DNA from: a virus
IMG/VR virus record: IMGVR_UViG_3300046028_000866
Span: 1 to 25,953 of that record
Reading direction: 5' to 3' (one strand)
DNA: 25,953 bases
Below, in pieces: positions 1,236-22,200 of the stretch (position 1 is its first letter; every line of letters starts with the position of its first letter). The notes under the pieces are model-generated. The model did not search any database. It was given only the letters and a program-made list of their open reading frames with translations, and was not told the DNA's origin. Made by a program: the position numbers and the translations under genes.

Positions 1236-1565
1236 TTATGCTGTTGATGTTTCGATACCGTAAGCTACTACACTAATTGTGGGTGTAGCTGAAGATACCT
1301 GAACAACTAAAAGTTTATTAGCGTCTACTACTAGACCAGTGCGTTCAACAACTCCGCTGGCCACCAATGAAGTATCGTATTCGATCCATTCATCTGGGTC
1401 AGGGGATGCCGAGTCTGCTACCGCTACTCTAATTGTTGCCGCTGTTGTGCTGCTTCTATTACAAATATTTAAGCTAACTACTGCGAAAGTACTTGAGGGT
1501 ACTGTGTATATTGTGGTATTAGCTGTGGTTGTAATGTTAGCTGTACCTAATCTTCCTGTTGCCAT
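1236..1565 (-). CDS. Small beta-sandwich virion protein (paralogue family of three)
   Basis: This 109-aa protein has no signal peptide or membrane segment. It is rich in Thr, Val, Ala and Ser and predicted all-beta. The pattern is 'TIYTVPSSTFAVVSLNICN' (about residues 18-36), then alternating hydrophobic strands, ending 'ISVVAYGIET'. The order (strand ending in 'xICN', variable loop, 'VxVxxN/GxxL.V', final 'VxYxx' strand) recurs in the products at 15534-15866 and 18762-19151, so I treat the three as distant paralogues. A Shine-Dalgarno (CGGAG) stands 8 nt before the ATG, and the gene sits between the giant adhesin and the S74 fibre. A role as a small fibre-tip, collar or decoration subunit is inference. 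No enzymatic motif is visible. Confidence 0.72.
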   Translation of the reverse strand: MATGRLGTANITTTANTTIYTVPSSTFAVVSLNICNRSSTTAATIRVAVADSASPDPDEWIEYDTSLVASGVVERTGLVVDANKLLVVQVSSATPTISVVAYGIETSTA

Positions 1566-1577
1566 ATAATTCTCCGA

Positions 1578-4500
1578 TTAATTTAAAAAGTAATTCCATG
1601 CTATTGGGTATCCTCGGACACCAGCTCGGAAGTCAAAAGTAGCCTTCATTGCTATTGTACCACCCGTTGTAGTAGTAATTTGATTGGTGTTGATTTCCAC
1701 AAATCCTGCTACAATGCTATTTACATTCAATGCTGCTCCACCACCACCAATCTGTGCAGCAATATAAGATTTAATGGCTCTCTGTGTTGAAACCACATTG
1801 TCTGAATTAGCTGTCAAGAACGGATCAGTTGAAAACTCAGTAATTGTAGCTGAATTTCCACCTAATGTAAGATTACCTAGACTAAGTTCTGCCAGTCCTG
1901 CAATATTAAAGGCATCTGCATTTAATGTAGCAACACCGGTTGATTGTTCAATTGTAAACAATTCACCTACTCTAAAGTTACCATCTTGGTCGGTTGATGT
2001 ATAGAACACGCGGCCGCCGTTATTGTCCACAGTCTCGTTGGCCTGTATTGGCGGCTGTAGTGGAGTACCGGGATAATTGGTTTCTGTAAAGTTACCTGTG
2101 CCTATATCCAAGAAATCATGTCCTGTTAGTCTAACCTGGCTGTAACGCACACGAGTAGTAATTGCAGTAGCATCTGCAGGAGAATCAAACGGTGTCATGT
2201 TTGGCGATACTTGGAAGAACGCCGATCTTGAACCGTCAACTGAACCGCTTTGACTTAGAACTGCTACCAACTTATATACCACAGTAGGCTGTGTAGCAAA
2301 TACCACATTAGCGCCTGCTGAAGGAACACCAGTTAAACGCTTAACTCCAATAAATTTACCATTTTGGAAGTTGTCGGCATAGCCGTCTCCAGTATCTTCT
2401 TCAACAATAGCAGCGTCAAATCCTGTTCCACGATTTTTAAAGCTGACATTTGCACAGGCTCCGTTGCCTATTCTCACCGATGTTGGAGCTTCAAACAGAT
2501 TGTTTGGATCGGTAATGGTTACAGTTGGTGCTGATCCATATGCTGATCCGGGATCTTCCATTCTTATTGCAAATATTTTATTATCTGCCACATATGCACG
2601 AGCTTTAGCTGTGGCGCCTAATACTGCACTAGATGCTGCTGTTGTAGAAGCACTTGGAATAATTGCCCAGATGCTGTTTTGATTTGGATTACCATTTACA
2701 GCAATAAGTGCTCCTGTACCACTAGCACGAGTAATTGCTCTTGTGGTCCAATTGATACCATCTTCCGAACTCGCCATGTTATTGCTGCTGGATGTTGTTA
2801 CAACAAATACACCTTGGCCGTATCTAATATTGGTAATAGTACCTGAACCTGGGTAACCTGTTTCACCGATTTTACTCCAAGTTACTCCTTTATCTACAGA
2901 ATAAGCAGGATCTATAGCACCATCGCTAGATACCGCAACAAATTTATTCTTACCATAGGTAATGCTGATCCAAGTACTTGAATCTGGCAATGCTCCGCCG
3001 GCAACCCATGTTACACCATTTGTTGAATAGCTAGTATCTGTGCCGCCTGTGCTAACTGCTATCCATACACCTTGACCGTAAGTGATACTACTCCATGTGC
3101 CTGCTGCAAGACTGCCGCCTGCCACCCACGATGTGCCACCGTTGACCGAATAAGCTGTAACACCTGTTGATCCTAAAACTACCCAACGTGCTGCTCCTGA
3201 TACATTTCCGTAGGCTATTCCAACAGCCAAGCCACTTATACCTCCCGGTAGTGCGGCTCCTGCGGTCCATGATGTACCGCCGTCTGTCGAATATGCATTT
3301 ACTGTAGTACTAGAACTCACTGCTAATAAATGACTGGCTATTGGTGTTGCTGTGCCTGTACCTGATCCAGCGCCAGTTGCCACAAAATATTGTCCAACTA
3401 AGTTTGCATCAGCCCCTATGCTTGTGAACACAGTGTTACCTAAAGAAGTAATAACATAACTTCTACCGGTTACAAATCCGCCCGCAGTTTCTATTGTTGT
3501 TAGTTTACCTCCAGCTAACCCCACCCAGTTTGATGTGCTTGGTAAAGATAATAAATTTTCTGTCCATGTAGTTCCATTTACAGAAGTGTTAGTGGTTCTC
3601 GATCCACTTGAAATTGCTGCAAACTTGCCACCTGCGCCTACACCTGTGTATTCTATAGCAAGAATAGCACCTGTAGTTGAATTTACCGAAGTCACGGTCA
3701 CTGTGATATCGTTGGTAGTAGTTGCGCCACCAACAGCCGTACCTAACAAAGTGATAGTGTCTAATCTAGCATATCCTGTGCCTGCGGCTTTTAATACCAC
3801 TGCTGAATATTTTACACCTTTACGAGCCACTGTAAATGTAGCGCCTGTGCCTGTGCCAGATGTTGACGCAGCTGATACTGTAGGATATACTGCTCTAGTA
3901 GGAGTATATATTGCATCAGTATATGTCTGTGCAGTAGCCAATGTTCTTGCAGTAGATGCATATGTTGGACTAGTAAATGCAACACGAGGTTCTACAATAT
4001 ATGTGCTAGAAGCATCTGGAGCCACAATTGCAGTACCTGGAACTATATGGTCCCAACCTGCTGCGCCTGTTGATTCTTTAGTAACCGTAGCCACTTTGGT
4101 AGCTGCTGTATATGAATCTATAATACCAACCTGTCCTGCTCCCGTACCTGCGGTAATGATTAGTTTCATGCCTACATACGCACCACTAATTTCATCATCA
4201 ACTGCGGCCAATGCTAACTGTGTAGTAGATCCTGACTGTGCAGTATTGGAGTTAGTGATATAACCACTGCCTCCGAGATTACCATCTGCTTCTTCAGCTG
4301 TGGTACTATCGTCTGTGTTATCCAATAATCTAACTTGGAATACAGCACCGTCGCGGAAATCATCTTGCTCAACTTCTGCGCCACTGCCGCCACCACTGAC
4401 TGACCAAGTAACTTCGGTATAGTCTGTGCCTGCATTATCATATTCGAACTGCAATATTTTGTTAATGCCGTCTGTGAGCGATGATCCCACTGTAGCGTTA

Positions 4501-7500
4501 AATGCACGATTGTCTACTACGCAAACTATTGGAGTTTCGTTAGCGTCAAAGCCTTCTGCTACAGAACCAAAATCTCCGTATGAATTATTACCGTTGGTGC
4601 CGCGGATACGACCACCGTTTTCTGCTAGGTATCCAATGTGAGCATAATATGAGAACACAGAAACAAGCTCAGCACGACCATTATTAGTAATCCAAGCGCC
4701 AATACCGTCTGATATTACCTGTGTAAAGTCATTGGAAACAATAGAATCGTTGCCTCCGTTGTGTAATGCTCCGTCGATCTTTTGACCGATAGCCGCAGTA
4801 CCAAATGTGGCAACGTTTTGTACATAAGGTGAACGGCCAATGATCCAAGTGCGGAAGTCGTCTGGGCCCCAACCTGGATCCAATGAACAATAGGCTCCGG
4901 CACTAACTCTGCTGGTACCGTATTCGTTTGGTGCTAGCAGATCGCCGGTAAGTCCTGCCAATGTTTGATTACGCAAACCTGTGCCATTACGCAGATAATA
5001 CATGTCTTCTTCTAGACTGCCTGTAACTGCATTAGCATAGTATCTTGCGGCCAATCTTGATTTATAGTTTCCTGGATACTGTAGATCAAATTTTAAAGCA
5101 TCTATGTATCTACCAACGTCTCTTAGGCACAATTCACTGTTGTAATAAAGACTCACTGTCATTGATCCTGCTGCATCGAGTGGTATAGTTACTGCTGTGT
5201 TTGAGTTTCGTGTCTCAGAAATTTTAAATGTAGTTGAACTTACAACATTCTGTATGTAATAGGTAGTGCTTGTGCTAACTCCACCAATAGTTGTACCGGT
5301 AAATCTTACCGCAGCATTACGCTGCATCCAGGCAGTACTAGTACAAGTGAATAAGGATGTGGCCGCGGTGGCCGCAGTCACAGTGGTAGTATAGGTACTA
5401 TCAATATACGCATCAATTTCTGCAGTAATATATGATCTATTACGCTCTAGTTGTAGTCTAGCCCAATCAGCACCTCTAATACTTGTTTGACATATTGAAC
5501 CTTCGTTGGTTGCACCGTAGACAATGTCGTCTAACATGGTCATTAGAGTTTCTATACGAGCCTGTGCAGTAGCATTACCTCCTACATTGGCCAGTGCTTC
5601 TGTCTTGGCATTAGCGAATGCATCTCTAGTAATTGTTTTTTGATCGCCGACAAACACTTCTGCCGCTGTAGCTCTTAGATATGAATATGCTGCGGTGCGT
5701 GTTAGACTGTTGCTGTCAAACATAAAGTCAAACATTACCGCTTCAAGAATCAATCTAGTATCTCTAATACACTTGGTTTGGAGATATCGAATTTTAGGAG
5801 TAATTCCGTCAGTTTTGTAGGCATTTGGAAATACTGCGTTAAAGGCAGTACCACCTGACGATAGGCAAGATACAGTAATGTCTGTTATATTAACAATATC
5901 GCCCGCTGCTAAACTGTGAGTCGTAGTAGTTACTACTGCATAACCTGTGGAGTTATTGTAGACAAAATTACTAACTGCCAGTGTTGTTCCGTCAGATTTA
6001 GTTACAACACCACCGCTTACATAGGTATGAGCTAGAGTATGTTTTCCAACATAGATTCTAAAATCTGTTGAAGTCAAAGAAGTTGCGTCTACTACAAAGT
6101 CAGTATGCCAAGCTACTGCATTCAAGTCATCTATAACATTTTGAACAATAGTTTCTTGGGCAGCGTCTAATGTTGTTGCCGCTGTGATCAATGCAGTTGT
6201 GCTTGTTATCGCGTTTGTAGCTGTAGGATAGTCAATGGTTTCAAAGTCTAAATCTAGACCAGCGCCGTTAGTAAACGAAGCTAATACTGATCCACCGTAA
6301 GTAGCTGCAAGTTGGAAGGTATTTGTGTTAACTGTTCCTACTACCCAATATTTTACTCCTGCTGTTAGTCCGTTAGCAGTGGTTCTTGGAACAATAGCAT
6401 CGCCTACTTCGAGTCCGTGACTGTTAGATGTAAATGTGTTAAGAGTTGCAATCTGTGTAACGTTAATCTGAGGAGTTAAACTTGCAGTTGAATCACCTTG
6501 AATGATGTTGATAATAACATCTATAAGACCACCAACAGTGGCATTAGCACTAGATCCACTCATTAAATTAGTACTGTCAGTCCACTGAGTGGCAGCATTA
6601 CCTGTAGATTTAGTCACTGTAGTATTAGCAATAATCTGTTGCATTACAGTTTTTAATCTACTGTAAGAATCAGCAGTAGCAGCTATTTCAGTACTGTCAA
6701 TCTGTAAGTCAGTGCTGGCATTGCCATCAAAGTAAGCCAGTCCCGCAGTCAGTGTTTGATATTTTCCACCGTAGGTTAAATCGTAACATACTGCATCTAC
6801 TATAAATCCAATGTCTCTACGGCATTTAGTTTTACTATACTTTACTGAAGGATAATTTACAGCAATGTACGCTGTAATTTCATCTTTTAGAAATTCTTTG
6901 TTTTCTTTTATTAAAGTGCGAGCATCACCGAATCCTGATAAAAACACAGTGTTGTAAGTTGTAGGGTCGGTTATAGTTTCTAATATATTTGTACCGATCT
7001 TAAAATCGATCTGGTGTTGCATTGTTCTAACCAGTCTCTTGATGTCAGTTTCTTCTACAGAACTAGCATAAGGAAACGCTACACTCTGAGTAGCAGTATT
7101 TCCAGCACTTTCTGTTACATTTGAACCTAATATAATTTGTCCAACAACTGTTTCTAATCTGCCTAGAGCACCAATACTATATTTTGCATCGTCACGACTG
7201 GTTAAACTGCCTGCTGGGCCTGCGTTTACTGAACGCTTTTCGTCGCCCACTAATGCAGTTTCTACAGGTACAATAATAGGAAGTGTTTCTCTGTACTGAC
7301 CTGTTTTAATATTAATTGTGTTATTAGGTACTCGTCTTGCTGGAAGGGCTGCTGTATCTTGGTCAGCAAGAGCTGTAATAACAATGTCAATTAATTCGTC
7401 TGTGGTAGCAGTAATACCGGTTTCAGCCACATAGTCAGTGTTGATATACTGTGCAACTACTGCTGTTGAGTCTTGACCAACATTTTGATAAACAGTGCTA

Positions 7501-9569
7501 GGAACTTCGTTAGCTAATACATCTGCTACTAACAGTTTTAATTGTTCATAAGCTGCAACACCTTCGTCTGCTTCTGCTGCTAGTGTTACATATGTTTCGC
7601 TTTCTTCAGGTGCTGAAAATTCTCCAGCTTCGCCAAATGCACCAAGTAAACTGAAAGCAGCGGCACGCATTTTTAAATTGCCGCCATGTCCTAGGTCCCA
7701 AATTAATCTATCAACAATAAATCCAACATCGCGTTCACATTTATATTCATCATAGTCAAAATTATACCATAGTTGGCCAATAGTTGCCGCTGAAATTTGT
7801 GTTCTAATCCAAGCGGTAATTTCTTTTTGTATAAATGCTCGATTTAATTCTAACAGATGCTGTGAGTTAGGATTGCGAGGACCGTTATCTACCTGCTCAC
7901 AAGCATAACGAATTGTTTTCCAAGGCTTGTCTAAACTTGCTCCACAATCTGGATACGCTCTGTCTTCTCCAGTTGGAGAAACATAATAAACATGCTGAGT
8001 ATTACCCCAAGTAACCCATTCTGGAATACCAGCAGCACTTACACGAAGAACCTGTCCTTCTGTACCAACTGGTAATCTAGTTGGGCCTGCGCCGCCGTAA
8101 TAGACCATATCACCTGTGGTTGTTAACACAGACGTTTCACTACCAACTGTTACTAAATTCCAATATGTACCTGAAGCGTCTAAGTCTGGACGACTAAGGG
8201 CTTGTCCGCCACCTTGTGTGCCGAGTGTTGATCCGTCGTCACCTTCTGCACGATGTGATAGTACGCAGATGTAAGCATTTGATCCGTGTCTAACAGTGTC
8301 ACCAACATTGTATTCTGTGTCGTCTGACCACTCACCTCTCCAATTGAATCCACGAGAAATATCAGTCCAGTATGCTGTGTTTGGTGGTTCTGCAGAAATC
8401 GTAGCTGTCATTGTGCCGCTGGCATCTGTTACAACATCGAATGTTGTTCCACCGGAAGTGGTGCTGATTGTAATGTATCCAGCTGCTACTGTTTTAACAT
8501 AGTATCTACCACTAGTAAATACTCCGCCAAATGTAGATCCTGTAAATCTTACAGTCATTCCTACTACAATGCCCGTAGTACTAACAATGGTAAATCTATC
8601 ATTTGACGCAGTGGCTGCGGTAACTGTAAATGTTAGGCTTGGGCTGTCTGTTGTGGCTAGGTAATTATTTCCGCCGTATTGAACTACTTCGCCTATTTTA
8701 TAAGACGTGCCACCAGCCCAAGACTGTTGATAGCTTAGTCCTTCTGAGAATAAATCCCAATCACTTGTACCAGTTAGTGGATTAGAGTTTGTGTGTTGTG
8801 TTTTAGAAACATAGTTGTTACCACCATAAGATACAACATCACCTGGCTGATATGCGGTTGCACCGCTCCAGACACTTTCGTATTCTAGACCTTCTGCAAA
8901 CTGTGTCCAATTTGCGCTATCTGCTGCAAAAGTGGTGTCTGAACTATGTGGTATTGTACAGATCCAAGTGCCTGCACCGTATTTTACAATATCATTTAAT
9001 TTATAACGTGTATTAGGACCAATCCATGTTCCTAGATATTCTTGCCCTTGGGTAAAGACCTGCCAATTTGCTATTCCGTTTTCTAATCCCAATGCGGCTG
9101 TAGATGCGGATGTATGGCCTGTGATACAGATATAATTGATGCCACTGTATCTTACAATGTCGTTGAGTTTGTATCTTGTTGAAACAGTCCAGGTATTTTT
9201 CCAGTCTGTACCTTCAACAAATGTATTCCAATCGCCGGAGTTGGCTTCTAGTCCCGAAGCGACTGTAGCTGCAGATGTGTGACCGTCTATACAAACGTAT
9301 ATAGTGCCACCGTATTTAACTAGGTCGCCTTCTTCATACACAGTACCAACAGTCCAATCGTCTCTCCAACGTTGTCCGTCACTCATCAAATTCCATTTAG
9401 TTGGATTGATATCTAGATCTGTGTTGAAATCAGCAGACGCTGTGTGACCAACTTGGCAGATATATACTTTTCCGCCAAATCTAATCACATCATCTTTGTA
9501 GTATGTGGTGCCTGTTACCCAAGCTGCCTTCCATACAAATCTAATTCTACCTAATTTAAATTCTGCCAT
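1578..9569 (-). CDS. Giant multi-domain adhesin/tail fibre, 2663 aa (CBM repeats, beta-helix, propeller)
   Basis: This is a virion-associated adhesin, probably a host- or polysaccharide-contacting fibre. Rough layout: residues 1-480, seven repeats of 'W....Y..gDvV.yGg..Y.C...H', resembling CBM5/12 chitin-binding type 3 domains; 486-525, 'LPVGTEGQVLRVSAAG', common in phage fibres; about 528 onward, beta-helix entry 'YYVSPTGED' and 'PWKTIRYA'; about 570-1500, four helical modules marked by 'C.RD.g.i.D' (about 611, 916, 1266, 1480); about 1560-1680, a block highly similar to the 1846-aa neighbour ('SLDPGWGP', 'NDFTQVISDGIGAW'); about 1970-2310, six BNR/Asp-box-like blades ('YSxNGxxW'); about 2475-2663, a conserved C-terminus ('GHDFLDIGTG', 'GGRVFYTSTDQ'). 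An ~80-residue module occurs twice and another is inserted in the propeller. SD CGGAG precedes the ATG; a late promoter lies 19 nt upstream. Export is unlikely, as there is no signal peptide. Confidence 0.88.
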   Translation of the reverse strand: MAEFKLGRIRFVWKAAWVTGTTYYKDDVIRFGGKVYICQVGHTASADFNTDLDINPTKWNLMSDGQRWRDDWTVGTVYEEGDLVKYGGTIYVCIDGHTSAATVASGLEANSGDWNTFVEGTDWKNTWTVSTRYKLNDIVRYSGINYICITGHTSASTAALGLENGIANWQVFTQGQEYLGTWIGPNTRYKLNDIVKYGAGTWICTIPHSSDTTFAADSANWTQFAEGLEYESVWSGATAYQPGDVVSYGGNNYVSKTQHTNSNPLTGTSDWDLFSEGLSYQQSWAGGTSYKIGEVVQYGGNNYLATTDSPSLTFTVTAATASNDRFTIVSTTGIVVGMTVRFTGSTFGGVFTSGRYYVKTVAAGYITISTTSGGTTFDVVTDASGTMTATISAEPPNTAYWTDISRGFNWRGEWSDDTEYNVGDTVRHGSNAYICVLSHRAEGDDGSTLGTQGGGQALSRPDLDASGTYWNLVTVGSETSVLTTTGDMVYYGGAGPTRLPVGTEGQVLRVSAAGIPEWVTWGNTQHVYYVSPTGEDRAYPDCGASLDKPWKTIRYACEQVDNGPRNPNSQHLLELNRAFIQKEITAWIRTQISAATIGQLWYNFDYDEYKCERDVGFIVDRLIWDLGHGGNLKMRAAAFSLLGAFGEAGEFSAPEESETYVTLAAEADEGVAAYEQLKLLVADVLANEVPSTVYQNVGQDSTAVVAQYINTDYVAETGITATTDELIDIVITALADQDTAALPARRVPNNTINIKTGQYRETLPIIVPVETALVGDEKRSVNAGPAGSLTSRDDAKYSIGALGRLETVVGQIILGSNVTESAGNTATQSVAFPYASSVEETDIKRLVRTMQHQIDFKIGTNILETITDPTTYNTVFLSGFGDARTLIKENKEFLKDEITAYIAVNYPSVKYSKTKCRRDIGFIVDAVCYDLTYGGKYQTLTAGLAYFDGNASTDLQIDSTEIAATADSYSRLKTVMQQIIANTTVTKSTGNAATQWTDSTNLMSGSSANATVGGLIDVIINIIQGDSTASLTPQINVTQIATLNTFTSNSHGLEVGDAIVPRTTANGLTAGVKYWVVGTVNTNTFQLAATYGGSVLASFTNGAGLDLDFETIDYPTATNAITSTTALITAATTLDAAQETIVQNVIDDLNAVAWHTDFVVDATSLTSTDFRIYVGKHTLAHTYVSGGVVTKSDGTTLAVSNFVYNNSTGYAVVTTTTHSLAAGDIVNITDITVSCLSSGGTAFNAVFPNAYKTDGITPKIRYLQTKCIRDTRLILEAVMFDFMFDSNSLTRTAAYSYLRATAAEVFVGDQKTITRDAFANAKTEALANVGGNATAQARIETLMTMLDDIVYGATNEGSICQTSIRGADWARLQLERNRSYITAEIDAYIDSTYTTTVTAATAATSLFTCTSTAWMQRNAAVRFTGTTIGGVSTSTTYYIQNVVSSTTFKISETRNSNTAVTIPLDAAGSMTVSLYYNSELCLRDVGRYIDALKFDLQYPGNYKSRLAARYYANAVTGSLEEDMYYLRNGTGLRNQTLAGLTGDLLAPNEYGTSRVSAGAYCSLDPGWGPDDFRTWIIGRSPYVQNVATFGTAAIGQKIDGALHNGGNDSIVSNDFTQVISDGIGAWITNNGRAELVSVFSYYAHIGYLAENGGRIRGTNGNNSYGDFGSVAEGFDANETPIVCVVDNRAFNATVGSSLTDGINKILQFEYDNAGTDYTEVTWSVSGGGSGAEVEQDDFRDGAVFQVRLLDNTDDSTTAEEADGNLGGSGYITNSNTAQSGSTTQLALAAVDDEISGAYVGMKLIITAGTGAGQVGIIDSYTAATKVATVTKESTGAAGWDHIVPGTAIVAPDASSTYIVEPRVAFTSPTYASTARTLATAQTYTDAIYTPTRAVYPTVSAASTSGTGTGATFTVARKGVKYSAVVLKAAGTGYARLDTITLLGTAVGGATTTNDITVTVTSVNSTTGAILAIEYTGVGAGGKFAAISSGSRTTNTSVNGTTWTENLLSLPSTSNWVGLAGGKLTTIETAGGFVTGRSYVITSLGNTVFTSIGADANLVGQYFVATGAGSGTGTATPIASHLLAVSSSTTVNAYSTDGGTSWTAGAALPGGISGLAVGIAYGNVSGAARWVVLGSTGVTAYSVNGGTSWVAGGSLAAGTWSSITYGQGVWIAVSTGGTDTSYSTNGVTWVAGGALPDSSTWISITYGKNKFVAVSSDGAIDPAYSVDKGVTWSKIGETGYPGSGTITNIRYGQGVFVVTTSSSNNMASSEDGINWTTRAITRASGTGALIAVNGNPNQNSIWAIIPSASTTAASSAVLGATAKARAYVADNKIFAIRMEDPGSAYGSAPTVTITDPNNLFEAPTSVRIGNGACANVSFKNRGTGFDAAIVEEDTGDGYADNFQNGKFIGVKRLTGVPSAGANVVFATQPTVVYKLVAVLSQSGSVDGSRSAFFQVSPNMTPFDSPADATAITTRVRYSQVRLTGHDFLDIGTGNFTETNYPGTPLQPPIQANETVDNNGGRVFYTSTDQDGNFRVGELFTIEQSTGVATLNADAFNIAGLAELSLGNLTLGGNSATITEFSTDPFLTANSDNVVSTQRAIKSYIAAQIGGGGAALNVNSIVAGFVEINTNQITTTTGGTIAMKATFDFRAGVRGYPIAWNYFLN

Positions 9570-9587
9570 TACCGACTCCGTATTGTA

Positions 9588-9595
9588 TATTTATG
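9588..9595 (-). promoter_or_regulatory. T4-type late promoter (CATAAATA) for the 2663-aa adhesin
   Basis: On the minus strand the sequence reads CATAAATA, fitting the NATAAATA late-promoter consensus described for T4-like phages (gp33/gp55-dependent). It ends 19 nt before the ATG at 9569, leaving room for a short leader that includes the CGGAG Shine-Dalgarno. It lies immediately past the stop codon of the 1846-aa gene (9597-9599), so it would give the distal fibre genes their own start. No -35 element is expected for this class. Confidence 0.65.
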
Positions 9596-9596
9596 C

Positions 9597-12500
9597 TTAT
9601 TCGAAACTACGAAAGAACATAGTCTGTGCTAGATAACCATGACTAATTCCCGACGCTACACCACTAAAATCTGCTAAAACGTTAACATAGATTGTTAGTC
9701 CTGCTGTATTACTAATCTCACCCGGTCCTACTTTTACTGTACCAGCTATAATACTAGGTGTTAATAAATCTTCTCCGCCTATGTTTAATCTGCTTTGTAG
9801 ATATGATCTAACAGCTCTCTGTGTGGGTATAACATTGTTAGAATTCTGTAAAAACAATGGATCTTTACTAAACTCTCTAATCACTGCGGTAGAACCTACG
9901 TTAATGCCCGCTAACCGCAATTCTGTTAATCCTGATAGATCAAAGAAATCTGCAGAGATAGTTATAATACCAGTAGACTGCTCTACAGCAAACTGTTCTC
10001 CTGCTCTAAAGTTACCGCTTTGATCTGTAGAAGTATAAAATACTCTTCCGCCATTTAAGTTTTTTACTTCTTGATCTGGGAACGGAGTATAGTCGTAGTC
10101 TTGATATAATACAGGATAGTTAGTTTCTACAAATCCGCCAGTTCCGATATCTAAGAAGTCGTGTCCAGTAATACGCACCTGACTGTATTGTTCTCTTATC
10201 AATACTTCCATCCCGTGTTCTATAATGTCAGTGAGACTTGGTCTAGGACTCAGCTGGAATGTTGATCTAATTAATCCATTAGGTTGTATAGTTTCATCGA
10301 TGCCTGTTAGCACTGCTACATAAATTGTAGGTTTGCCGCCTATATAAAACTGTGCTCCAGGTCCTGGCATAACCGTTAAATCATCAATAGTGATATATCT
10401 ACCGGTAGGGGTGACATCGGCAAATCCGTCTCCTGTAACTGTGACTGTTGTGGTACTGGTTTTATAAGCACTACCAGTAGAAGTAAAGGTAGGCTGTGTT
10501 AACGCCCCGTCGCCGAGACGTGGTCTAAATATTGGCTCTGCGATCTTGTTAGGATCGATAATAGAAACTGTGGGATCTGAAGTATAGCCGCTGCCTGGTT
10601 CCCAAATTTTAATACGCGATATGCCAATGCCTTCTACACTACATCTACCTAAGATTCTAGCACCTGTATATATCCTAGCCAAATCAGTGGTTGCATCAGT
10701 TGGTGCTGCTATCCAGGTTGGTTTGTTGTTAGAAATAGTACTGTCGCCTAGAGTAATATCTGGATTACCAAATGCTATTACTCCCCAATTTTGACTCGAT
10801 GGCATGGTTCTTTCTGTCCACACAATACCATCATAGCTGGTAGCAGCATAAGTGGTTGGTCCTACAGTAGGATCAGCTCCAACTGTTCTTCCGCCAGTAT
10901 TTCCTACCGCAAAAAATACTCCCTGTCCGTAACGAATCTGTTGCCAATTATGTGTGGTAGATCCGTCTTGTGATGGCATAATATCTGCTGTCCACTCTAA
11001 TCCGTTAAAGCTATAAGCTGCATCTCCTGTAGAACTAATTGCAACAAATCTACGATTACCGTAGGCTACACTGATCCAATCTTTAGCAGAACTATCTGCT
11101 ACAACATCCATGATTGTTCCTTGCCATGTTAAAGTAGTTCCGTTCCATGTGCCTACAGCGGCAATATTTCCTGAGTTGGCTATGGCTACAAATAAACCGT
11201 AGCCGAATGTAATATCTACCCATTCATTTAGCGTAGAGTCACCAAATACTGGCATGCTAGATGCTGTCCATGTGGTCCCGTTAGTAGAGTAGGCGGCTGA
11301 ATTTAAATTGCCTGCTACTGCAACAAATACCCCCGTACTTACTCCAGGAGGTTTACCATAAGCAACACTGTTCCAATTTCTAGAACTAAGACCACTACTT
11401 GCAGTCCAATCTACACCGTTAGAGCTATAAGCAGCATTAGAACTGCCGTTGGCTATGGCCACAAACTTATTATCTCCAGCTGTCAAGCAGCGCCAATTTC
11501 CGTCGGTGGGTAGATCAAAACTAGTCCAAGTTTCACCATTTGATGAATATCTACCAAAATGCCCTGTGTTTGGCACAATAACAAACTTACCGCTAGCAGC
11601 AATAGGAGTGGTGTCTGAGATTGTAAATGCCATCACAGAATTTGTACTATCATCTGATATATCTATAACTGTGATTGTGAGATCGTGTTCATTGCTAATA
11701 CCGCCTATGTCGGCTCCGTCAATAACAATGTTATCACCAACTGCATAACCTGCACCACCACTGGTGATTGTAGCAGAATATGTTCTTCCAGTTTTGGTTA
11801 CTGTAAATACTGCGTTTGCAGGGGTTACTTCAACAACAGTTCCAGTACCTGCACCACCTGTAACTGATGTAAACACTTCGCTGGTTTCACCATAGACTGC
11901 TGCGGCCCAAGAATTAGCGGTGGCCAGTGTTATTACTTCGGCAGTATAAGGTGGTTCAGAAAATATAGGACGAGGTTCAATACGATAGCGTGTACCGGTA
12001 GTCATTGTGTCTCTTGACGGTGTTCCTGGATTAATATGATCCCATCCTGGCTGATCGTCACTTTCTCTGTACACTGTACATAATTTAATGCTAGGATTAT
12101 AGGCCTGTACATAGCCATACTGTCCAGTACCTTCACCCGAAATGATAATTATTCTTTTACCTATAATTTCTTCAGCCGTTGCGCTCTCTGCTGTGGCTAG
12201 TGTAATTGAAGTTGTATTACCAGTTATTGCCTGATTACCTCGAACTTCAAATCCCGAACCAGGAGATAACACTTGCATTTCAAACATAGCGTTGTCTCGG
12301 AATTCCTCTTGAACCGCTACGGCACCTGATCCAGAACTTTGAAAGCTGTATGCAGCAGTAGTATAATTTTCACCACAATGACTAAACTCCAACCCTAGAA
12401 TGTAGTCATTGATTTCACCGGCAAATGCACTGTCTATCACAGCATCGGTAAGTTGTGTGTTTACAATTCCGTATCTTACAGTTTCTGAAGAATCAATACC

Positions 12501-15137
12501 ATCGGCTACTGCACCAAAATTTCCGTAGGAACTATTGCCGTTGGTGGCACGTATAATACCACCATTTTTGGCAAACATTCCGATATGCGCATAATAACTA
12601 AACACCGAAACAAGTTCGCCGCGGCCACCGTTAATCATCCATGCACCAATGCCGTCTGATATTACCTGTGTAAAATCGTTGGAAACTATTGACTTGTTTC
12701 CTCCGTTGTGTAATGATCCGTCAACTTTTTGGCCTACAGCGCCTGTACCAAATGTTGTAACGTTCTGAATATAACAACTTCTAGAAGTAATCCATACTCT
12801 AGTATCTGCAGGACCCCATCCAGGATCAAGGCTGACAAATGCACCACCTGTTGGAATCTGATACGTTTCTCCTTCTACCGGTGCTGGCAGCGTGCCTTCT
12901 AGACCTCTCAAAGTCATGTTCCTTATGCCTGTACTATCTCTAACATAGAACATGTCTTCTAATTCGCTACCTATAATTGCATTAGCATATCGTCGACCTG
13001 CTAGTACTGATTTATAATTACCTGGATATTGTAGATCGTATTGCATTGCATTGATAAAATTATCAATGTAGTTGTCTAAAAGTTCAGTATCTATAACAGT
13101 ATCGGGGTAGATTACTGCTAGGTAAGTTTGAAATTCTGCTTTAACAAACTCTCTATTAATTTCTAATAAATCAACAGTGCTGAGTCTTTGTGCATTAGTA
13201 GTTAATGTATTATCGCCGGTAATTGCCGGTAATGCTCCACTGTCATCAACTAGGTAACTAATCGTGGTTAGTATATTCCCCCACAAGGCATTCACGACTC
13301 CCGGTAATCCAGCAGGCGAACTTTGTTCTCCAAAACTTTGTGTAATGGTATTTCCCGGCGTAGGCACAACAATATTTTTTTGTACAATAGCTGATAATAT
13401 AGTTCCAACATGTACTAGAGTTAGATATATATCGTCGTTCGCAGCCGCCAGCACTGAGTCTGCCGCTTTGGCTCTAATAGTAACTGATCTTAATTCTTCA
13501 CCTACTATTGCTGTGCGGGCTGGAACAATTAAAGGCAATACTTCGTCGTACAACCCAGTGGACACTAAAATTGAAGTAAATCCGCTGTAGCCATCATCTA
13601 CTTGTGATAATGCAAATGCCACAGTACGCCAAGGTTTAAAATAATTTATACCTCTATCTGGATCTGTAAGATCATCTACTCCGTTTTGTCTAACATAATA
13701 GGCTCGCGGGTTATTCCCCCAGGTAGTATATCCTATATCTCCTAGATTGTTCTCAACCACCAGCAATTGATCTTTAGTACCAATTGCTATTGGTGCTGGA
13801 CCTATGGTACTACCATCTCCTAGGGTAAATGTAGTGCTGCCATCTTCAAGAATATTTCTCTTGAGATTGTATGCCAGCAAATCGCCATATTGAGTTAGAG
13901 CAGCATCTTGGTCACCTACTAATGCCGTGGTCCAATAGTCAATGCCTTCTCCATTATCTCCGGGAAAGTTTTCAAAAGAACTTTGGTGTGGAGTGTTTGC
14001 ATAGTAAACTACGCCTCGATAATATACTACATCATATAAATTATAGTCTTGATTTGCGTTCCATGAACTTCTAAAATTCTGGGCAGCTATAACCAATTGC
14101 CAATTTGATGTGTCTAACGATCTTAGCGTACTATCATCTGTATATTGATTGGTTAAACTAACCCATAGAGCTCCGCCTCTTCGTACTACATCACCTTGAA
14201 AATAATCTCTGCTAGATTGAGGATCATATTCTCCCGCAAAATTGATACCATTGTTAATCACAGTCCACGCAGGATTTCCAGCGCCGCCGAAATCATTAGT
14301 TTCTGTTATTCCTGGCTGACTATTATAATTATTTTCAGCAGCAGTATAAAGAATTCCGCCCAATGCTACAGCATCACCTACAGCATAATATGAGGAACTG
14401 TTCCATTGATTGTCGTATTCAAAACCTAGAAGATATGTTACAAAATTTGCATTAACTATAAATCCCGGTGTTGCAGGACTGGTATGTTCTATTATACATT
14501 TTAATATAGACCCACCGTATTTGACTAAATCATTTATTCTGTATCGTGTTGATCCAGTATAGGGGCCTACATAAGAATAGTTTTCAACTTTAACTGCCCA
14601 TGTTTCGGCTGTGCTGTCATCGTTGCCGTCGTTGTTACCTACAATCACCCCTTGAGACACAGAGCCAGATGTATGCTCTAATACGCATTGATAGGTATAG
14701 CTATTATAGCGTATAACATCTCCTACTCTATATCTAGTAGCGGCTGTCCAGGTATTTCTAAAATTTGATCCTACAGCAAAAATTTCCCAATTAGACAAAT
14801 CACTATTAAAGTTTGCTGAAGATTCGTGACTAGACAGACAGAGGTAAGCATTTCCTCCAGAATATACTAGTACTCCTGGATCATATCGGATACCGTTGGT
14901 CCAGTCACCTAAAAATTGTCGTCCTTCAGACATTTTGACCCATCCCGGTAACGGATTGGTGTTGCCTGCAGGAATATATGTCTGTGCAGAATTAAACACG
15001 TCACTAGTGTGTGCCCGAATACAAACCCAGGCAGACCCGCGATAATAAATCACATCATCTTTGATATACTCAACTGAACTGGCTGACCAATTACCTCGCC
15101 ATGTGTATCTAAATCTGCTTATTTTAAACTCTGCCAT
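9597..15137 (-). CDS. Giant multi-domain adhesin/tail fibre, 1846 aa (paralogue of the 2663-aa protein)
   Basis: The architecture parallels the downstream giant. Both start 'MAEFK.(S/G)R.R(Y/F).W' and carry seven CBM5/12-like repeats (residues about 1-395, e.g. 'FRNTWTAATRYRVGDVIRY'). A beta-helix entry ('YYVRQNGVDD', 'PWRTVAFAL', about 479-510) follows. There is one helical module ('LLEINREFVKAEF' about 654, 'QYDLQYPGNYKS' about 700). The shared block ('SLDPGWGP', 'SIVSNDFTQVISDGIGAW') spans about 769-880. Six BNR-like blades lie at about 1182-1455 ('YSSNGVDW', 'YSTNGTTW') and the shared C-terminus at 1649-1846 ('GHDFLDIGTG', 'VFYTSTDQSG'). It lacks three of the helical modules and the inserted cassettes of its paralogue. 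SD AGGGAT precedes the ATG. I infer a trimeric, carbohydrate-binding appendage. No catalytic residues are identifiable, although the fold families include lyases and sialidases. Confidence 0.88.
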   Translation of the reverse strand: MAEFKISRFRYTWRGNWSASSVEYIKDDVIYYRGSAWVCIRAHTSDVFNSAQTYIPAGNTNPLPGWVKMSEGRQFLGDWTNGIRYDPGVLVYSGGNAYLCLSSHESSANFNSDLSNWEIFAVGSNFRNTWTAATRYRVGDVIRYNSYTYQCVLEHTSGSVSQGVIVGNNDGNDDSTAETWAVKVENYSYVGPYTGSTRYRINDLVKYGGSILKCIIEHTSPATPGFIVNANFVTYLLGFEYDNQWNSSSYYAVGDAVALGGILYTAAENNYNSQPGITETNDFGGAGNPAWTVINNGINFAGEYDPQSSRDYFQGDVVRRGGALWVSLTNQYTDDSTLRSLDTSNWQLVIAAQNFRSSWNANQDYNLYDVVYYRGVVYYANTPHQSSFENFPGDNGEGIDYWTTALVGDQDAALTQYGDLLAYNLKRNILEDGSTTFTLGDGSTIGPAPIAIGTKDQLLVVENNLGDIGYTTWGNNPRAYYVRQNGVDDLTDPDRGINYFKPWRTVAFALSQVDDGYSGFTSILVSTGLYDEVLPLIVPARTAIVGEELRSVTIRAKAADSVLAAANDDIYLTLVHVGTILSAIVQKNIVVPTPGNTITQSFGEQSSPAGLPGVVNALWGNILTTISYLVDDSGALPAITGDNTLTTNAQRLSTVDLLEINREFVKAEFQTYLAVIYPDTVIDTELLDNYIDNFINAMQYDLQYPGNYKSVLAGRRYANAIIGSELEDMFYVRDSTGIRNMTLRGLEGTLPAPVEGETYQIPTGGAFVSLDPGWGPADTRVWITSRSCYIQNVTTFGTGAVGQKVDGSLHNGGNKSIVSNDFTQVISDGIGAWMINGGRGELVSVFSYYAHIGMFAKNGGIIRATNGNSSYGNFGAVADGIDSSETVRYGIVNTQLTDAVIDSAFAGEINDYILGLEFSHCGENYTTAAYSFQSSGSGAVAVQEEFRDNAMFEMQVLSPGSGFEVRGNQAITGNTTSITLATAESATAEEIIGKRIIIISGEGTGQYGYVQAYNPSIKLCTVYRESDDQPGWDHINPGTPSRDTMTTGTRYRIEPRPIFSEPPYTAEVITLATANSWAAAVYGETSEVFTSVTGGAGTGTVVEVTPANAVFTVTKTGRTYSATITSGGAGYAVGDNIVIDGADIGGISNEHDLTITVIDISDDSTNSVMAFTISDTTPIAASGKFVIVPNTGHFGRYSSNGETWTSFDLPTDGNWRCLTAGDNKFVAIANGSSNAAYSSNGVDWTASSGLSSRNWNSVAYGKPPGVSTGVFVAVAGNLNSAAYSTNGTTWTASSMPVFGDSTLNEWVDITFGYGLFVAIANSGNIAAVGTWNGTTLTWQGTIMDVVADSSAKDWISVAYGNRRFVAISSTGDAAYSFNGLEWTADIMPSQDGSTTHNWQQIRYGQGVFFAVGNTGGRTVGADPTVGPTTYAATSYDGIVWTERTMPSSQNWGVIAFGNPDITLGDSTISNNKPTWIAAPTDATTDLARIYTGARILGRCSVEGIGISRIKIWEPGSGYTSDPTVSIIDPNKIAEPIFRPRLGDGALTQPTFTSTGSAYKTSTTTVTVTGDGFADVTPTGRYITIDDLTVMPGPGAQFYIGGKPTIYVAVLTGIDETIQPNGLIRSTFQLSPRPSLTDIIEHGMEVLIREQYSQVRITGHDFLDIGTGGFVETNYPVLYQDYDYTPFPDQEVKNLNGGRVFYTSTDQSGNFRAGEQFAVEQSTGIITISADFFDLSGLTELRLAGINVGSTAVIREFSKDPLFLQNSNNVIPTQRAVRSYLQSRLNIGGEDLLTPSIIAGTVKVGPGEISNTAGLTIYVNVLADFSGVASGISHGYLAQTMFFRSFE

Positions 15138-15153: not shown

Positions 15154-15522
15154 TTATGTTGAAATTCCACTAGGGTATGAATACCCTTGATTGATTCTTT
15201 GAACTAGTACTCCTTGAGAATCTATGTAATAAAATATCGATCTGTCATCCCAACGATATTGTGTGTAATACATGTTTTCGTGTTCAGGTTCGTGGTCAAC
15301 AGTTATCCCGTCAAAATAATCAACGCCAGGTTCAAAATCTTCAAAGTTTTCTTCAGGAGCTCCTGGAATATTTAACTCGTAGGCTTCCTTGTCTTTAACT
15401 TGATCGCTTCGAACAATATATAATTCGCCGTCATCATTTCTTCTTAAAGCATACCAATAACGAGGACTTTGTCCTAACGTTTCTACTGGATCCCTACCTA
15501 GATAATAATTACTTTGTGCCAT
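15154..15522 (-). CDS. Conserved virion-associated hypothetical protein, 122 aa, acidic and Tyr-rich
   Basis: This soluble 122-aa protein is unlike the low-complexity fibres around it. It is rich in Tyr, Asp and Glu, with 'YYLGRDPVETLGQSPRYWYA' near the N-terminus (residues 6-25), a central acidic run 'EENFEDFEPGVDYF', and a C-terminal 'YTQYRWDDRSIFYYIDSQG'. I do not recognise a named family, but its style resembles small structural proteins in marine T4-like fibre clusters. The ATG has an AAGGAT Shine-Dalgarno overlapping the stop of the upstream gene, and it sits between the small beta-sandwich gene and the 1846-aa adhesin. A connector or chaperone role for the adhesin is a guess from position only. 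Confidence 0.68.
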   Translation of the reverse strand: MAQSNYYLGRDPVETLGQSPRYWYALRRNDDGELYIVRSDQVKDKEAYELNIPGAPEENFEDFEPGVDYFDGITVDHEPEHENMYYTQYRWDDRSIFYYIDSQGVLVQRINQGYSYPSGIST

Positions 15523-15870: not shown

Positions 15871-16923
15871 TTATCCTAATGTCAATGCAAATGCTGCGGC
15901 CGCGTCTTCAGCCTGTGTCAATGTTACTGCACCACTAGATCCTGCAGGGCTTGCCCAACTAAATCCGTCCCATACTTCAAGAGCTCTCTGTTCTATATTG
16001 TATCTAGTCATACCTAATACTGCATAGGCTGTAGGTCTTTCTGCATTAGTGCCTCTTGGTAATACAACTCCATTAGTTCCTGCAATTTTAAAATATCCAG
16101 TCCCGGTAGAAATCAGCTGACTGATTGCATTGTTTGAAATGTTAGTTACTGTATTATCTCTAAATCTAAAATTACCTAGTTTAACACCGCCAACTCCGTT
16201 GCCGAAGATTGATAAGTCAGTGCCTGTAGTTGTGGTAATTTCGTTGTCTCTAAACTGTAAATTACCTATGTCTAGAGAATTTAAACTCAACATATCAGTG
16301 AAGAAATTCTGTGCATAGACTGTGCGCCATGCATAGGCTGCAGATCCTAGATCGTATGTGTTATCTACTTCTGGTACTAGACTGCTTTTAATTGCCGCAT
16401 TGATTGTAATGTTGTCTGTCAGCGCATCGCCAATGGTAATATTTCCACTGATCACTACATTGCCAGTAACTCCTACATTTCCCGTTACTGTTAGATTTCC
16501 ATTAACTGTAGTGTTGGCATAGATATCAACAATACCAATGCCGTTTGGTCTTAGTTCTATGTTGGAATTAGAAACATTTGTTGATATTGTATTGCCTTGA
16601 ATTTCAAGATCGTTGATCTGCAGGCGACTATGATATACCGTGGCCTGTCCGCCTGCAGGTATAAAATTAATTGTATTGTTAGAACTTGCAATCGTGTTGC
16701 CTGAAATTGTGAACTGGGCAATAGTTGCTTGGGTGTCTACTATTAAATCAGTAGTTCTTGTGGTACCGGAAATGTCTAGGTCGTATTGAGGAGACGCAGT
16801 CTTAACACCTATGCGAGAGTTGTTAACATCAAGATAGAGAAGGTCGGTCTCAAACGCTAAATTTACGCCCTCACGGACTAAATTTGCTTTTAAGAGCGGC
16901 CCTGAAATACGTCCAATAGCCAT
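15871..16923 (-). CDS. Fibre-like virion structural protein, 350 aa
   Basis: I chose the ATG at 16923 (MAIGRISGPLLKANL) over the in-frame ATG nine codons upstream. It has a good Shine-Dalgarno (AAAGGAG), and the paralogue at 17048-18136 starts the same way (MSQLGRISGPLLDANL). The body is beta-repeat sequence typical of phage fibres: 'DLLYLDVNNSRIGV' (with 'SPQYDLDISGTT'), 'IELRPNGIGIVDIYANTTVN', 'GNLTVTGNVGVTGN', 'NTYDLGSAAYAWRTVYAQ'. Near the C-terminus is the shared block 'LPRGTNAERPTAYAVLGMTR', then 'LEVWDGFSW'. The last residues, 'AAAAFALTLG', parallel 'LANAYILILG' in the paralogue. It is likely a trimeric fibre or baseplate-proximal subunit. A 124-nt leader with a hairpin precedes it. 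Confidence 0.8.
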   Translation of the reverse strand: MAIGRISGPLLKANLVREGVNLAFETDLLYLDVNNSRIGVKTASPQYDLDISGTTRTTDLIVDTQATIAQFTISGNTIASSNNTINFIPAGGQATVYHSRLQINDLEIQGNTISTNVSNSNIELRPNGIGIVDIYANTTVNGNLTVTGNVGVTGNVVISGNITIGDALTDNITINAAIKSSLVPEVDNTYDLGSAAYAWRTVYAQNFFTDMLSLNSLDIGNLQFRDNEITTTTGTDLSIFGNGVGGVKLGNFRFRDNTVTNISNNAISQLISTGTGYFKIAGTNGVVLPRGTNAERPTAYAVLGMTRYNIEQRALEVWDGFSWASPAGSSGAVTLTQAEDAAAAFALTLG

Positions 16924-16939
16924 AGCTCTCCTTTGTACC

Positions 16940-16952
16940 CCGTGTTTCACGG
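16940..16952 (-). promoter_or_regulatory. Hairpin just upstream of the Shine-Dalgarno of the 350-aa fibre gene
   Basis: On the minus strand CCGTG-AAA-CACGG forms a perfect 5-bp stem with a 3-nt loop. It ends a few bases before AAAGGAG and the ATG at 16923. There is no U-run, so it is not a terminator. It could keep the ribosome site open or mark the 5' end of a processed transcript. This is a sequence observation only. Confidence 0.4.
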
Positions 16953-17047: not shown

Positions 17048-18136
17048 TTAGCCTAGTATAAGGATGTAGGCGTTGGCAAGGTCGTAGTTTTCAACAGAAG
17101 AAATAGAACCACCGGGACCTGTTGCTAAGTTCCAAGTAGTACCGTCAAAACATTCCATATAGTTGTCAAGAGGATTATCAGTGTTCCATCGAGTGTCGCC
17201 TGCTTCGGGACTTGCTGCTCGTTGCGCATCGGTACCTGCAGGAATAATTAATGCATTGGTATCCATGAACCTAACATAGCCTATACCGGTAGATGCTAGA
17301 GTAAATGCCGTAGCATCAAGATTGGTGATGTCGTTACCGTTAAATCTAAAACGCTCAATGTCGATATTGCCAGTATCTGAATTTAATATAACATCATCAT
17401 TGCTTTGCAGTGTTCTAATACTAGGAAGTCCGCTTTCTATCTCGAGCTGTAGTCCAACAGTCACATCATTAAACGATAAAGAGCCTATGTCTAAATTTTG
17501 ATGTACGTGAACCTGTCTCCATCTTTTTATCGTTGTTCCTAAATCATAGGTTATGTGATCTCCAGGAATAATACTTTGAGTAAAATCCGGAGCAATAGTT
17601 ACAGTATCAAGTATGCTGTCTCCAACTATGATGTTGGTAGCTTCTGTTAAATTACCGTTGATCTGTGTGTTGCCTGTTACTGTTATATTTCCGTTGACTG
17701 TGGCATTGGAATATATGTCAATAATGCCTGTGCCGTTAGGATTTAATTCAATACCACCATTGACTGCGTAATTTTTAATTATGTTGTCTTTGAAATCTAA
17801 ATCCCCGGCACGCATGTTGTCAAATGTAACTAATGGATTGACTTGATTTGGGCTTACGATAATTGTGCTTGATATATCTGTGGAAAATATATTGGTTGTG
17901 GCTGTGATTGTGGCAATGTCTGCACTGGTTGTACTAATTAAATTTGTACTGTGTGTGATGCCATCAATTTCAACTCGTCGATTTGCTGGTTGTTTATTAA
18001 CACCAATTCTGTTGTTGGTTACATCAAGATATAATAAGTCATCATCAGCACCGTAGTTGCGAAATGTGAGATCAACGCCTAGCCTATTTAGGTTTGCATC
18101 TAGTAGAGGACCACTGATACGACCCAACTGTGACAT
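17048..18136 (-). CDS. Fibre-like virion structural protein, 362 aa (paralogue of the 350-aa protein)
   Basis: This protein opens MSQLGRISGPLLDANLNRLG and follows its downstream paralogue in order: 'DLLYLDVTNNRIGV', 'IELNPNGTGIIDIYSNATVN', 'GNITVTGNTQINGN', 'ITYDLGTTIKRWRQVHV', then 'IPAGTDAQRAASPEAGDTRW', 'MECFDGTTW', and the end 'YDLANAYILILG'. These repeats form elongated beta structures in many marine phage fibres. The ATG lies 2 nt past the stop of the upstream gene, and the weak Shine-Dalgarno (CGGAAAC) overlaps that gene's last codons, so coupling is likely. I infer an ancient tandem duplication, as identity is concentrated at both ends and in the central repeat. No enzymatic motif is seen. 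Confidence 0.8.
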   Translation of the reverse strand: MSQLGRISGPLLDANLNRLGVDLTFRNYGADDDLLYLDVTNNRIGVNKQPANRRVEIDGITHSTNLISTTSADIATITATTNIFSTDISSTIIVSPNQVNPLVTFDNMRAGDLDFKDNIIKNYAVNGGIELNPNGTGIIDIYSNATVNGNITVTGNTQINGNLTEATNIIVGDSILDTVTIAPDFTQSIIPGDHITYDLGTTIKRWRQVHVHQNLDIGSLSFNDVTVGLQLEIESGLPSIRTLQSNDDVILNSDTGNIDIERFRFNGNDITNLDATAFTLASTGIGYVRFMDTNALIIPAGTDAQRAASPEAGDTRWNTDNPLDNYMECFDGTTWNLATGPGGSISSVENYDLANAYILILG

Positions 18137-21030: not shown

Positions 21031-22200
21031 TTAAGCGAAACGTAGGTTAGCGGAAGTTACTGCAACTTTAGCTAGGTAGTCAGCTGCGTTACCTAGAGAA
21101 GAAGCTGTATTTGTCAACTCAACATAACCATATCGTGTCATGAATGATACGACTGGTTCGAAAGTTGCTGGGTCAAGAACAACACCGCTGCTCATCAATG
21201 GAATGTATGGGCAGTAGAATGCTGGAGCATCAGACTCGCTAGAACCTTTGTAACCGATAAGAACATCATCAGATGTAGCATAACCGTTAACATAAACTTT
21301 CATTGCGCTGTTCAATGTACCAACAAACTTGGTGTTTGTAGGAGCTTCGAATGTACCTTCTGTTGTTCTTGCGAACGCAGAAGTTGTTGCGCTTTGTAGC
21401 AATGTCAATACTGTTGGAGATACAACAGCGTAGTTACCAGCACCACGACGTGTACGCTGAGCGATCAAGTTAGCTGCACGATTGATTTGAACAGCTAGAG
21501 CAGCGTGTTCATCACCAACGAATGTAGCAGTACCAGAAACAGCAGCTTGGTCATAAGTTAAAACTGTACCAGCTAGGCTGTTCAAAGAAGCAATAACTTC
21601 TTGGTCGATTTCAGCTGTAATTTCTTGTGCTAGAGCAGCCATGATTTCTGCTTCGATGTCAATGCCTTGTTGGGCTTGTGCATCTTGAGCAGCTTCAAAC
21701 GTCCAACGAGCTGACAACTTGCGTGTCTTAGCTTCGACGGTTTGTTTCAAGATTTGGATGCTCATTCTGTTACCAGCTACACCTTCAAGAGCGGCTGTAG
21801 AAGCAGCTTTATCAGAAGCAGCACCAGAATAGCCTTCAGCAATCTTGAATGGGCTTAGTGCTTCATCACCAGCTGTTACATCAGTACCTGATGTGCTGTT
21901 GAATGTGTCAGCGTAACGCACACGCAATGTGTGAATTTGACCAACTGGGCCAGTCATAGGCTGGACACCTACCAACTCGTTAGCGATAACGGTTGGCATT
22001 ACACGTCTGATGACGGGTAGAATAACACGGTTAAGTGTTGCAACGTTGCCAGCGGAAGTAGCTCCAGCAGTAGCACTTTCTGCGAGATACTTGCGGGTAT
22101 TCTCTAGAGTAGTTGCCATTACTGAACGCTTGTTACCTTGTAGACCTTCTAATAGGGCCTCTTTGGTCTCCGACCAGCGTGACTCGAGTAATTGTGACAT
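21031..22200 (-). CDS. 23: Major capsid protein precursor, gp23
   Basis: This HK97-fold major head protein of T4-like phages builds the capsid hexamers. It opens MSQLLESRWSETKEALLEGL. The hallmark 'NELVGVQPMTGPVGQIHTLR' spans about residues 73-92, resembling the 'VGVQPM.GP.GQ' region of T4 gp23. Later come 'NAMKVYVNGYA..DDVLIGYKG' and a C-terminal 'VSFMTRYGYVELTN'. A gp21-type site [L/I]-x-E occurs as LAE at 39-41, just after the acidic/helical propeptide, so a mature chain of about 348 residues starting SATAGATSAG is predicted. At 389 aa it is much shorter than T4 gp23 (521 aa), so the T4 insertion domain may be reduced or missing. It has the best Shine-Dalgarno here (AAGGAGA, overlapping the gp22 stop) and a strong terminator downstream, consistent with very high expression. 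Confidence 0.97.
   Translation of the reverse strand: MSQLLESRWSETKEALLEGLQGNKRSVMATTLENTRKYLAESATAGATSAGNVATLNRVILPVIRRVMPTVIANELVGVQPMTGPVGQIHTLRVRYADTFNSTSGTDVTAGDEALSPFKIAEGYSGAASDKAASTAALEGVAGNRMSIQILKQTVEAKTRKLSARWTFEAAQDAQAQQGIDIEAEIMAALAQEITAEIDQEVIASLNSLAGTVLTYDQAAVSGTATFVGDEHAALAVQINRAANLIAQRTRRGAGNYAVVSPTVLTLLQSATTSAFARTTEGTFEAPTNTKFVGTLNSAMKVYVNGYATSDDVLIGYKGSSESDAPAFYCPYIPLMSSGVVLDPATFEPVVSFMTRYGYVELTNTASSLGNAADYLAKVAVTSANLRFA

Follow-up and report, generated by a model that had tools for sequence, protein, structure and literature searches.

Two adjacent giant fibre genes of an uncultured aquatic T4-like phage, P1 and P2, which almost all relatives examined keep next to each other, very probably go back to a single duplication in place, after which P1 was lengthened step by step through added modules; each protein is proposed to form its own fibre. 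The DNA analysed (the window) is a 25,953-base IMG/VR virus fragment. After a T4-like head module, with gp23 (E=5e-100) and a prohead protease, come several fibre-like genes in a row, every one encoded on the minus strand. The window shows mixed affinity: the head gene gp23 (21031-22200) is closest to jumbo T4-like phages (among named gp23 proteins, 72% identity with Sinorhizobium phage Phosso and about 67% with PA5oct and GAP32), but the genes for the fibres resemble those of Kyanoviridae.

Two paralogous fibre proteins with one plan

P1 (1578..9569, 2663 aa) and P2 (9597..15137, 1846 aa), both on the minus strand like all of their parts given below, are separated by 27 nt, and orthologues of both exist, those of P1 in 70+ IMG/VR loci. 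Both match the tail fiber protein profile PHROG 9851 (E=6e-169 for P1 and 3e-133 for P2), a family match by which they are predicted tail-fibre (adhesin) proteins. The original prediction had described two giant adhesins sharing a plan of seven repeats, helix, propeller and tail, and its landmarks are borne out: both proteins begin with MAEFK, a repeat profile built from the two together finds exactly seven units in each (residues 13-453 of P1 and 12-398 of P2), and SLDPGWGP, DGIGAW, GHDFLDIGTG and VFYTSTDQ are present in both. The possibility that the shared blocks align no better to each other than to unrelated fibres is contradicted by BLASTP, in which P1 and P2 share 38.7% identity over ~1,200 columns (P1 1477-2625 / P2 683-1802) with 694 bits and an E-value of about 0, against at most 189 bits to the single-copy fibres of named cyanophages and the pelagiphage Mosig; the match thus exceeds both chance and generic fibre similarity.

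The shared parts include a beta-helix core, delimited by conservation and AlphaFold models (P1 residues 1517-1685, 4515..5021; P2 residues 723-888, 12474..12971), a beta-propeller region (P1 residues 1951-2325, 2595..3719, recognised from sequence repeats and the alignment to P2; P2 residues 1151-1488, 10674..11687, modelled at a pLDDT of about 90 and matched by Foldseek), and a conserved C-terminal block running from GHDFLDIGTG to VFYTSTDQ (P1 residues 2466-2610, 1740..2174; P2 residues 1643-1795, 9753..10211, placed by the P1/P2 alignment and conservation). The core and the C-terminal block are the most conserved parts of P1, with an all-pairs identity of 0.81 each (0.72 for the P2 core), and the P1 propeller, at 0.47, is its least conserved large domain, lowest together with small beta inserts. 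Other regions of P2 are about as variable as its propeller, so variability alone singles out no receptor site. Upstream of the P2-P1 pair, further fibre ORFs of the same genomes contain the C-terminal block too.

AlphaFold was applied to monomer segments, giving a mean pLDDT of 81.5 and a pTM of 0.84 for P1 481-1680, and 89.1 and 0.66 for P2 471-1660. In these models, the helical modules loop out between the beta strands that make up the stem; the P2 segment also contains a propeller, for which Foldseek returned virginiamycin B lyase (TM 0.77) and YCF48 (TM 0.62). By its predicted fold this P2 domain is a BNR/Asp-box-type beta-propeller; Pfam BNR gave no hit in P1 or P2. The six BNR-like blades originally proposed hold as far as the propeller fold of P2 and six Asp-box-like motifs (S-x-[DN]-G-x-x-W/L) in the propeller sequence are concerned, the blade number itself being approximate because the best fold matches are 7-bladed.

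Tandem duplication in a conserved genomic slot

Besides the window, 77 IMG/VR loci (about 55-58 non-redundant) carry both copies through the core and C-terminal block, in the order [w15534]-[gc295]-P2-P1-[w1236] and with 18-68 nt between P2 and P1. The small conserved gene gc295 (15154..15522, minus strand), a homologue of cyanophage T4-GC 295 whose product shares 34% identity with S-CAM1 SXBG_00230, lies directly upstream of the fibre slot wherever a paired locus extends that far, and its position is identical in single- and double-copy loci. Directly downstream lies another small conserved gene, w1236 (1236..1565, minus strand), whose homologues follow the single fibre in cyanophages and P1 in paired loci where the locus is long enough and the gene still recognisable. 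Just downstream of the pair (251-1225) lies a gene for a tail-fibre-like protein that has a Peptidase_S74 (intramolecular chaperone) domain at its C-terminus.

Cyanophages have one fibre gene, coding for 1000-1770 aa, between gc295 and w1236. These fibres (T4-GC 296: P-SSM2 PSSM2_301, S-CAM1 SXBG_00229 and S-SSM7 SSSM7_113 of the Kyanoviridae, with pelagiphage Mosig_00063) resemble P1 and P2 in their MA[DE]F start, beta-helix core, C-terminal block and CBM5/12-like array (3-6 repeats detected, mostly 5), but they are encoded by one gene instead of two and have no helical module (33/33) and no detectable propeller, a region common to P1 and P2 only. The one-copy phages that the original prediction had suggested looking for were therefore found, both as cyanophages with this slot and as a single-copy locus, L203, with its fibre in the same slot, with a basal position in the paired clade and without helical module or propeller.

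A maximum-likelihood tree of the core and C-terminal block, with single-copy fibres set as outgroup, separates the singles from all paired fibres (100/99) and supports one clade for P1 (93/87) and one for P2 (97/90); the first copy of locus L204 is placed in neither of them, at the base of the paired fibres. Among complete pairs, the size difference is stable (medians of 1846 aa for P2 and 2552 aa for P1). The proposed tandem duplication is thus supported by synteny, trees and module counts, and the simplest reading of tree and slot is that the gene was duplicated in tandem once, after its lineage had separated from that of the cyanophages. Because the root was placed by the outgroup, an older duplication, before that split and with loss in cyanophages, is possible, though less parsimonious.

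The duplication is old, since orthologues in different genomes are more alike in the core (about 72-81%; P1 0.81, P2 0.72) than paralogues in one genome (about 66%), which rules out a recent event. Core similarity between P1 and P2 is slightly higher within a genome than between genomes (0.659 vs 0.645; permutation p=0.0005); limited gene conversion between the copies is possible on these figures, and the same-genome excess is too small for conversion to be the main cause of their similarity. The propeller may have been gained after the duplication and then have spread between the copies, as the first copy of L204 and the L203 fibre lack it. A divided P2 in L066 looks like a frameshift and was not taken as a biological split. 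Duplication is recurrent in the fibre cluster of the window, which also holds a second tandem pair of related fibre-like genes (15871-16950 and 17048-18136; 38.7% identity over 362 residues). Host assignment from photosystem genes was set aside, psbA being found in 0/26 paired contigs and in 3 single-copy contigs (34 records searched, most of them fragments).

Stepwise growth of P1

The difference in size, 817 residues, had been attributed to extra internal modules in the larger copy, and pairwise alignment agrees, placing the excess almost wholly within P1 563-1476 (+46 up to residue 562, +183 in 563-781, +565 in 782-1476 and +23 thereafter). The inserted region is made up of repeated alpha-helical modules (signature C-x-R-D-x-G-x-x-x-D-A-x-x-Y-D-L-x-x-G-G-N) and small beta inserts. 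Module HMM searches and AlphaFold models define M1 (residues 563-746, 7332..7883, motif KCERDVG, all-helical in the model), M2 (residues 866-1045, 6435..6974, KCRRDIG), M3 (about residues 1116-1350, 5520..6224, KCIRDTR) and M4 (about residues 1365-1516, 5022..5477, LCLRDVG, with two partial HMM hits), the last two with a beta insert inside. P2 has a single degenerate helical module with a spacer (residues 557-722, 12972..13469; HMM match at 657-720, and AlphaFold), in which CxRD has been lost (ELLDNYIDN). Beta inserts interrupt M3, M4 and also the CBM array of P1, where one lies between repeats 6 and 7 (residues 313-395, 8385..8633, a gap in the P1/P2 alignment); a stretch inside M4 (about residues 1413-1475) resembles it, a likeness judged by eye only, with strands in the model.

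The helical module is present in 0 copies in 33/33 single fibres, 1 in 35/37 P2 proteins and 4-5 in 15/17 P1 proteins, partial hits included. The two P1 exceptions, with 1 module in L204 and 2 in L205, are successively the earliest branches of the P1 clade, and, mapped on the tree, the counts of 0, 1, 2 and 4-5 trace a nested ladder of stepwise growth. The earlier proposal of a tandem duplication followed by growth in one copy therefore stands for the duplication itself and for growth mostly in P1, but the duplication is not recent, and P2 has grown too relative to its single-copy relatives, since it also has a propeller and one helical module.

Several loci show further variation. Size asymmetry is pronounced in L204 (9029-21231), with a first copy of 1211 aa without module or propeller and a second of 2840 aa, whose propeller is interrupted by a very long low-complexity, beta-like insert. 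In L203 (5885-9718), an apparent w1236 homologue is swollen to 1277 aa by many beta-rich repeats of about 70-80 residues (by eye), for which Pfam supplied no useful name; the repeat unit resembles, again by eye, the beta inserts of P1, and this enlargement suggests that internal repetition may be a general route of growth around the fibre genes. Six contigs, which belong to two related types, encode P1 as two ORFs, one of 667/674 aa with the CBM array and one of 2086/2089 aa, and these overlap by 1 nt (TAATG stop-start) at the M1 boundary, with the same junction in both diverged types. The array ORF of these contigs (L041 10001-18285; also L044, L046, L047, L049 and L051) ends in a glycine-rich tail, GGYGGGDNDGGGYY.

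CBM5/12-like arrays without the chitin-binding pair

The N-terminal arrays of P1 (residues 13-453, 8211..9533) and P2 (residues 12-398, 13944..15104) each give seven hits to the repeat HMM, and Pfam CBM_5_12 (PF02839) covers seven stretches in P1 (E=2e-38, 130.6 bits) and five in P2 (E=4e-19, 68.7 bits), above the gathering cut-off of 26.2. PDB matches of the P1 array to ChtBD3 domains include 1ED7. The repeats share the W..Y..GD.V.Y.G..Y....HT core of CBM5/12 (ChtBD3) domains such as those of chitinase A1 (1ED7) and chitin oligosaccharide deacetylase (3WX7), but the match ends ahead of the binding region. Chitin binding by CBM5 needs a consecutive exposed aromatic pair, Y-W or W-W (PMC8449059), and by inspection of the repeat alignment such a pair is present at the aligned place in 0/14 repeats of P1 and P2. 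Chitin binding was therefore dropped, and the repeats are treated as a structural or differently specific array. In S-BM3 (L132 10001-10894), the CBM5/12-like array is a stand-alone 297-aa gene, followed by a gene for a large structural protein.

A possible kinship of the helical module with phycobiliproteins

Foldseek comparison of the P1 model with the PDB gave flavohaemoglobins, of the globin superfamily, as top matches, and phycobiliproteins dominated the results (probability about 0.99, TM by target 0.5-0.62, 16-22% identity, E 0.045 or weaker). When a profile of 40 modules was searched against all PDB sequences, phycocyanins came first and fourth (E=0.25 and 1.2), with KCxRDxGYxxxxxxYxLxxGG as the aligned stretch. 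In hhalign comparisons with 51 clusters from the same loci as decoys, the module matched CpcA at P=3e-6 to 9e-6, against about 0.02 for the best decoy other than the phycocyanin clusters; with 110 diverse modules against CpcA and CpcB, the alignment spans 101 columns and the CpcB cluster, too, outranks all unrelated decoys. Phycobiliproteins attach bilin at a CxRD motif, as do some of the bilin biosynthesis-associated globins (BBAGs), for which bilin loading can proceed with no lyase (PMC10151467). The motif is found in 4/4 P1 modules of the window, in 217/264 intact cores and in 56/71 further modules; among P1 orthologues with four cores, it occurs in 66/71 M1, 45/71 M2 (with CxQD in another 20/71) and 57/71 M3 modules, and it is kept in 30/76 P2 modules.

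Kinship with phycobiliproteins is thus likely but not proven, because the profile signal leans on CxRD: with the C, R and D columns masked, the match falls to P=0.043-0.053, in register yet not significant. That the module is an ordinary helical spacer, and that the likeness reflects convergence around a CxRD-bearing helix, is accordingly a real possibility, if a somewhat doubtful one. Apart from the effect of masking, it is favoured by the Foldseek E-values against phycobiliproteins, by the replacement of Cys in part of the modules, by the absence of CxRD from 46/76 P2 cores, and by Pfam Phycobilisome (PF00502), which gave no hit above cut-off in the window modules; no useful Pfam name was obtained for the module at all. 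It is harder to reconcile with the fact that fold search and sequence profile single out the same family across the whole PDB, with CpcA and CpcB profiles that exceed the unrelated families among the 51 clusters over alignments of up to about 100 columns, and with top fold matches that, as flavohaemoglobins, are globins too. Set beside phycobiliproteins (CpcA, CpcB) and BBAGs, the P1 module resembles them in predicted fold, finds its top profile match among them and has CxRD where the corresponding long helix begins, but it is repeated within extracellular fibre proteins, its Cys is not invariant, and its sequence kinship is weak outside CxRD.

The module reaches well beyond the pair. In INPHARED it occurs in 261 records, all cyanophages except one uncultured marine virus. 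The maximum, 35 copies, lies in a 6590-residue stretch of one open frame of about 6,680 aa (G036:C1:103400-123300, L485), part of a virus record of 399,796 bases. Giant cyanophage structural proteins (PHROG 4527, 5342, 701 and 18802) carry the same module, often in several copies, unrecognised under names such as 'tail fiber' or 'virion structural protein'; unlike P1 and P2, the examples looked at lie outside any duplicated CBM-propeller pair. A literature search that covered neither subscription journals nor preprints found no description of this kind of module in phage virions.

Adjacent genes for a haem oxygenase and a ferredoxin-dependent bilin reductase (G001:C1:10466-11669; L294 about 6455-7673) lie in a 280-kb record that has a P2-P1 pair as well and in which psbA was not detected. 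Modules occur in 8/9 bilin-reductase-bearing records over 120 kb, but also in 5/5 gp23 relatives over 100 kb, which served as control and had a detectable bilin reductase in 0/5. A specific link between modules and bilin genes, beyond membership of the clade, was therefore rejected. That fibres of this large aquatic T4-like group bear bilin-binding arrays of phycobiliprotein-related globins, making the virions biliprotein-bearing, would be a very long shot.

A model for the evolution of the fibre pair

In the proposed scenario, a single fibre gene between gc295 and w1236 would have been duplicated in place once, before the T4-like lineage of the window diversified, and both copies would have been kept in fixed order since. 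P1 would then have been lengthened stepwise as copies of a globin-like alpha-helical module were inserted into loops of the beta-helix stem, and some of these modules would themselves have taken up small beta domains. Each protein would form its own fibre, with the CBM5/12-like array and beta-helix stem as shaft, the helical modules projecting from the shaft of P1, the variable propeller as the likely receptor-contacting head facing the host, and the C-terminal block as an assembly or docking part, a role that fits its recurrence in other fibre ORFs of the same genomes. Trimer state, orientation, receptor contact and any ligand of P1 and P2 are what we infer here. Two paralogues giving two binding specificities, as originally suggested, is plausible by analogy with phages that have several receptor-binding proteins, e.g. 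Ackermannviridae (PMC11414711).

Two other histories have to be weighed against this one. Tail-fibre genes of T4-like phages exchange modules, and P1 and P2 could have been acquired independently as different fibre genes that came to share blocks by horizontal exchange, a view to which the presence of the C-terminal block in other fibre ORFs and the unlike propeller content of L204 and L203 lend some weight. It is nevertheless most improbable: in the tree, P1 and P2 group together to the exclusion of all single-copy fibres (100/99), their reciprocal monophyly is near-complete and their adjacency fixed across divergent contigs, and one slot, between gc295 and w1236, holds a single gene in cyanophages and the pair here. 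Independent acquisition was also looked for among relatives, which do not show it. The other alternative concerns architecture: P1 and P2 might be proximal and distal segments of one composite fibre, like T4 gp34/gp37, and not separate appendages. The strict co-occurrence and order of the two genes would suit such an arrangement, and the splitting of P1 in six contigs and the separate array gene of S-BM3 indicate that such fibres can be built from separate chains. A composite fibre still seems rather unlikely, as each protein has the full set of parts (array, stem, head and C-terminal block) and single-copy relatives make do with one such gene.

With duplication in place and separate fibres as the preferred reading, the growth of a fibre after gene duplication is documented step by step, and living relatives show in what order the steps were taken because intermediates with 0, 1, 2 and 4-5 modules are still present. 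At the same time, a helical module that is common in the structural proteins of cyanophages and huge phages, yet has had no name, gains a candidate kinship, with phycobiliprotein-like globins. If true, this kinship would bear on the origin of phycobiliproteins and on why phages of non-phototrophs carry bilin genes, a question left open in PMC11480375; if the modules did bind bilin, such phages might have in them a use for their genes for haem oxygenase and bilin reductase.
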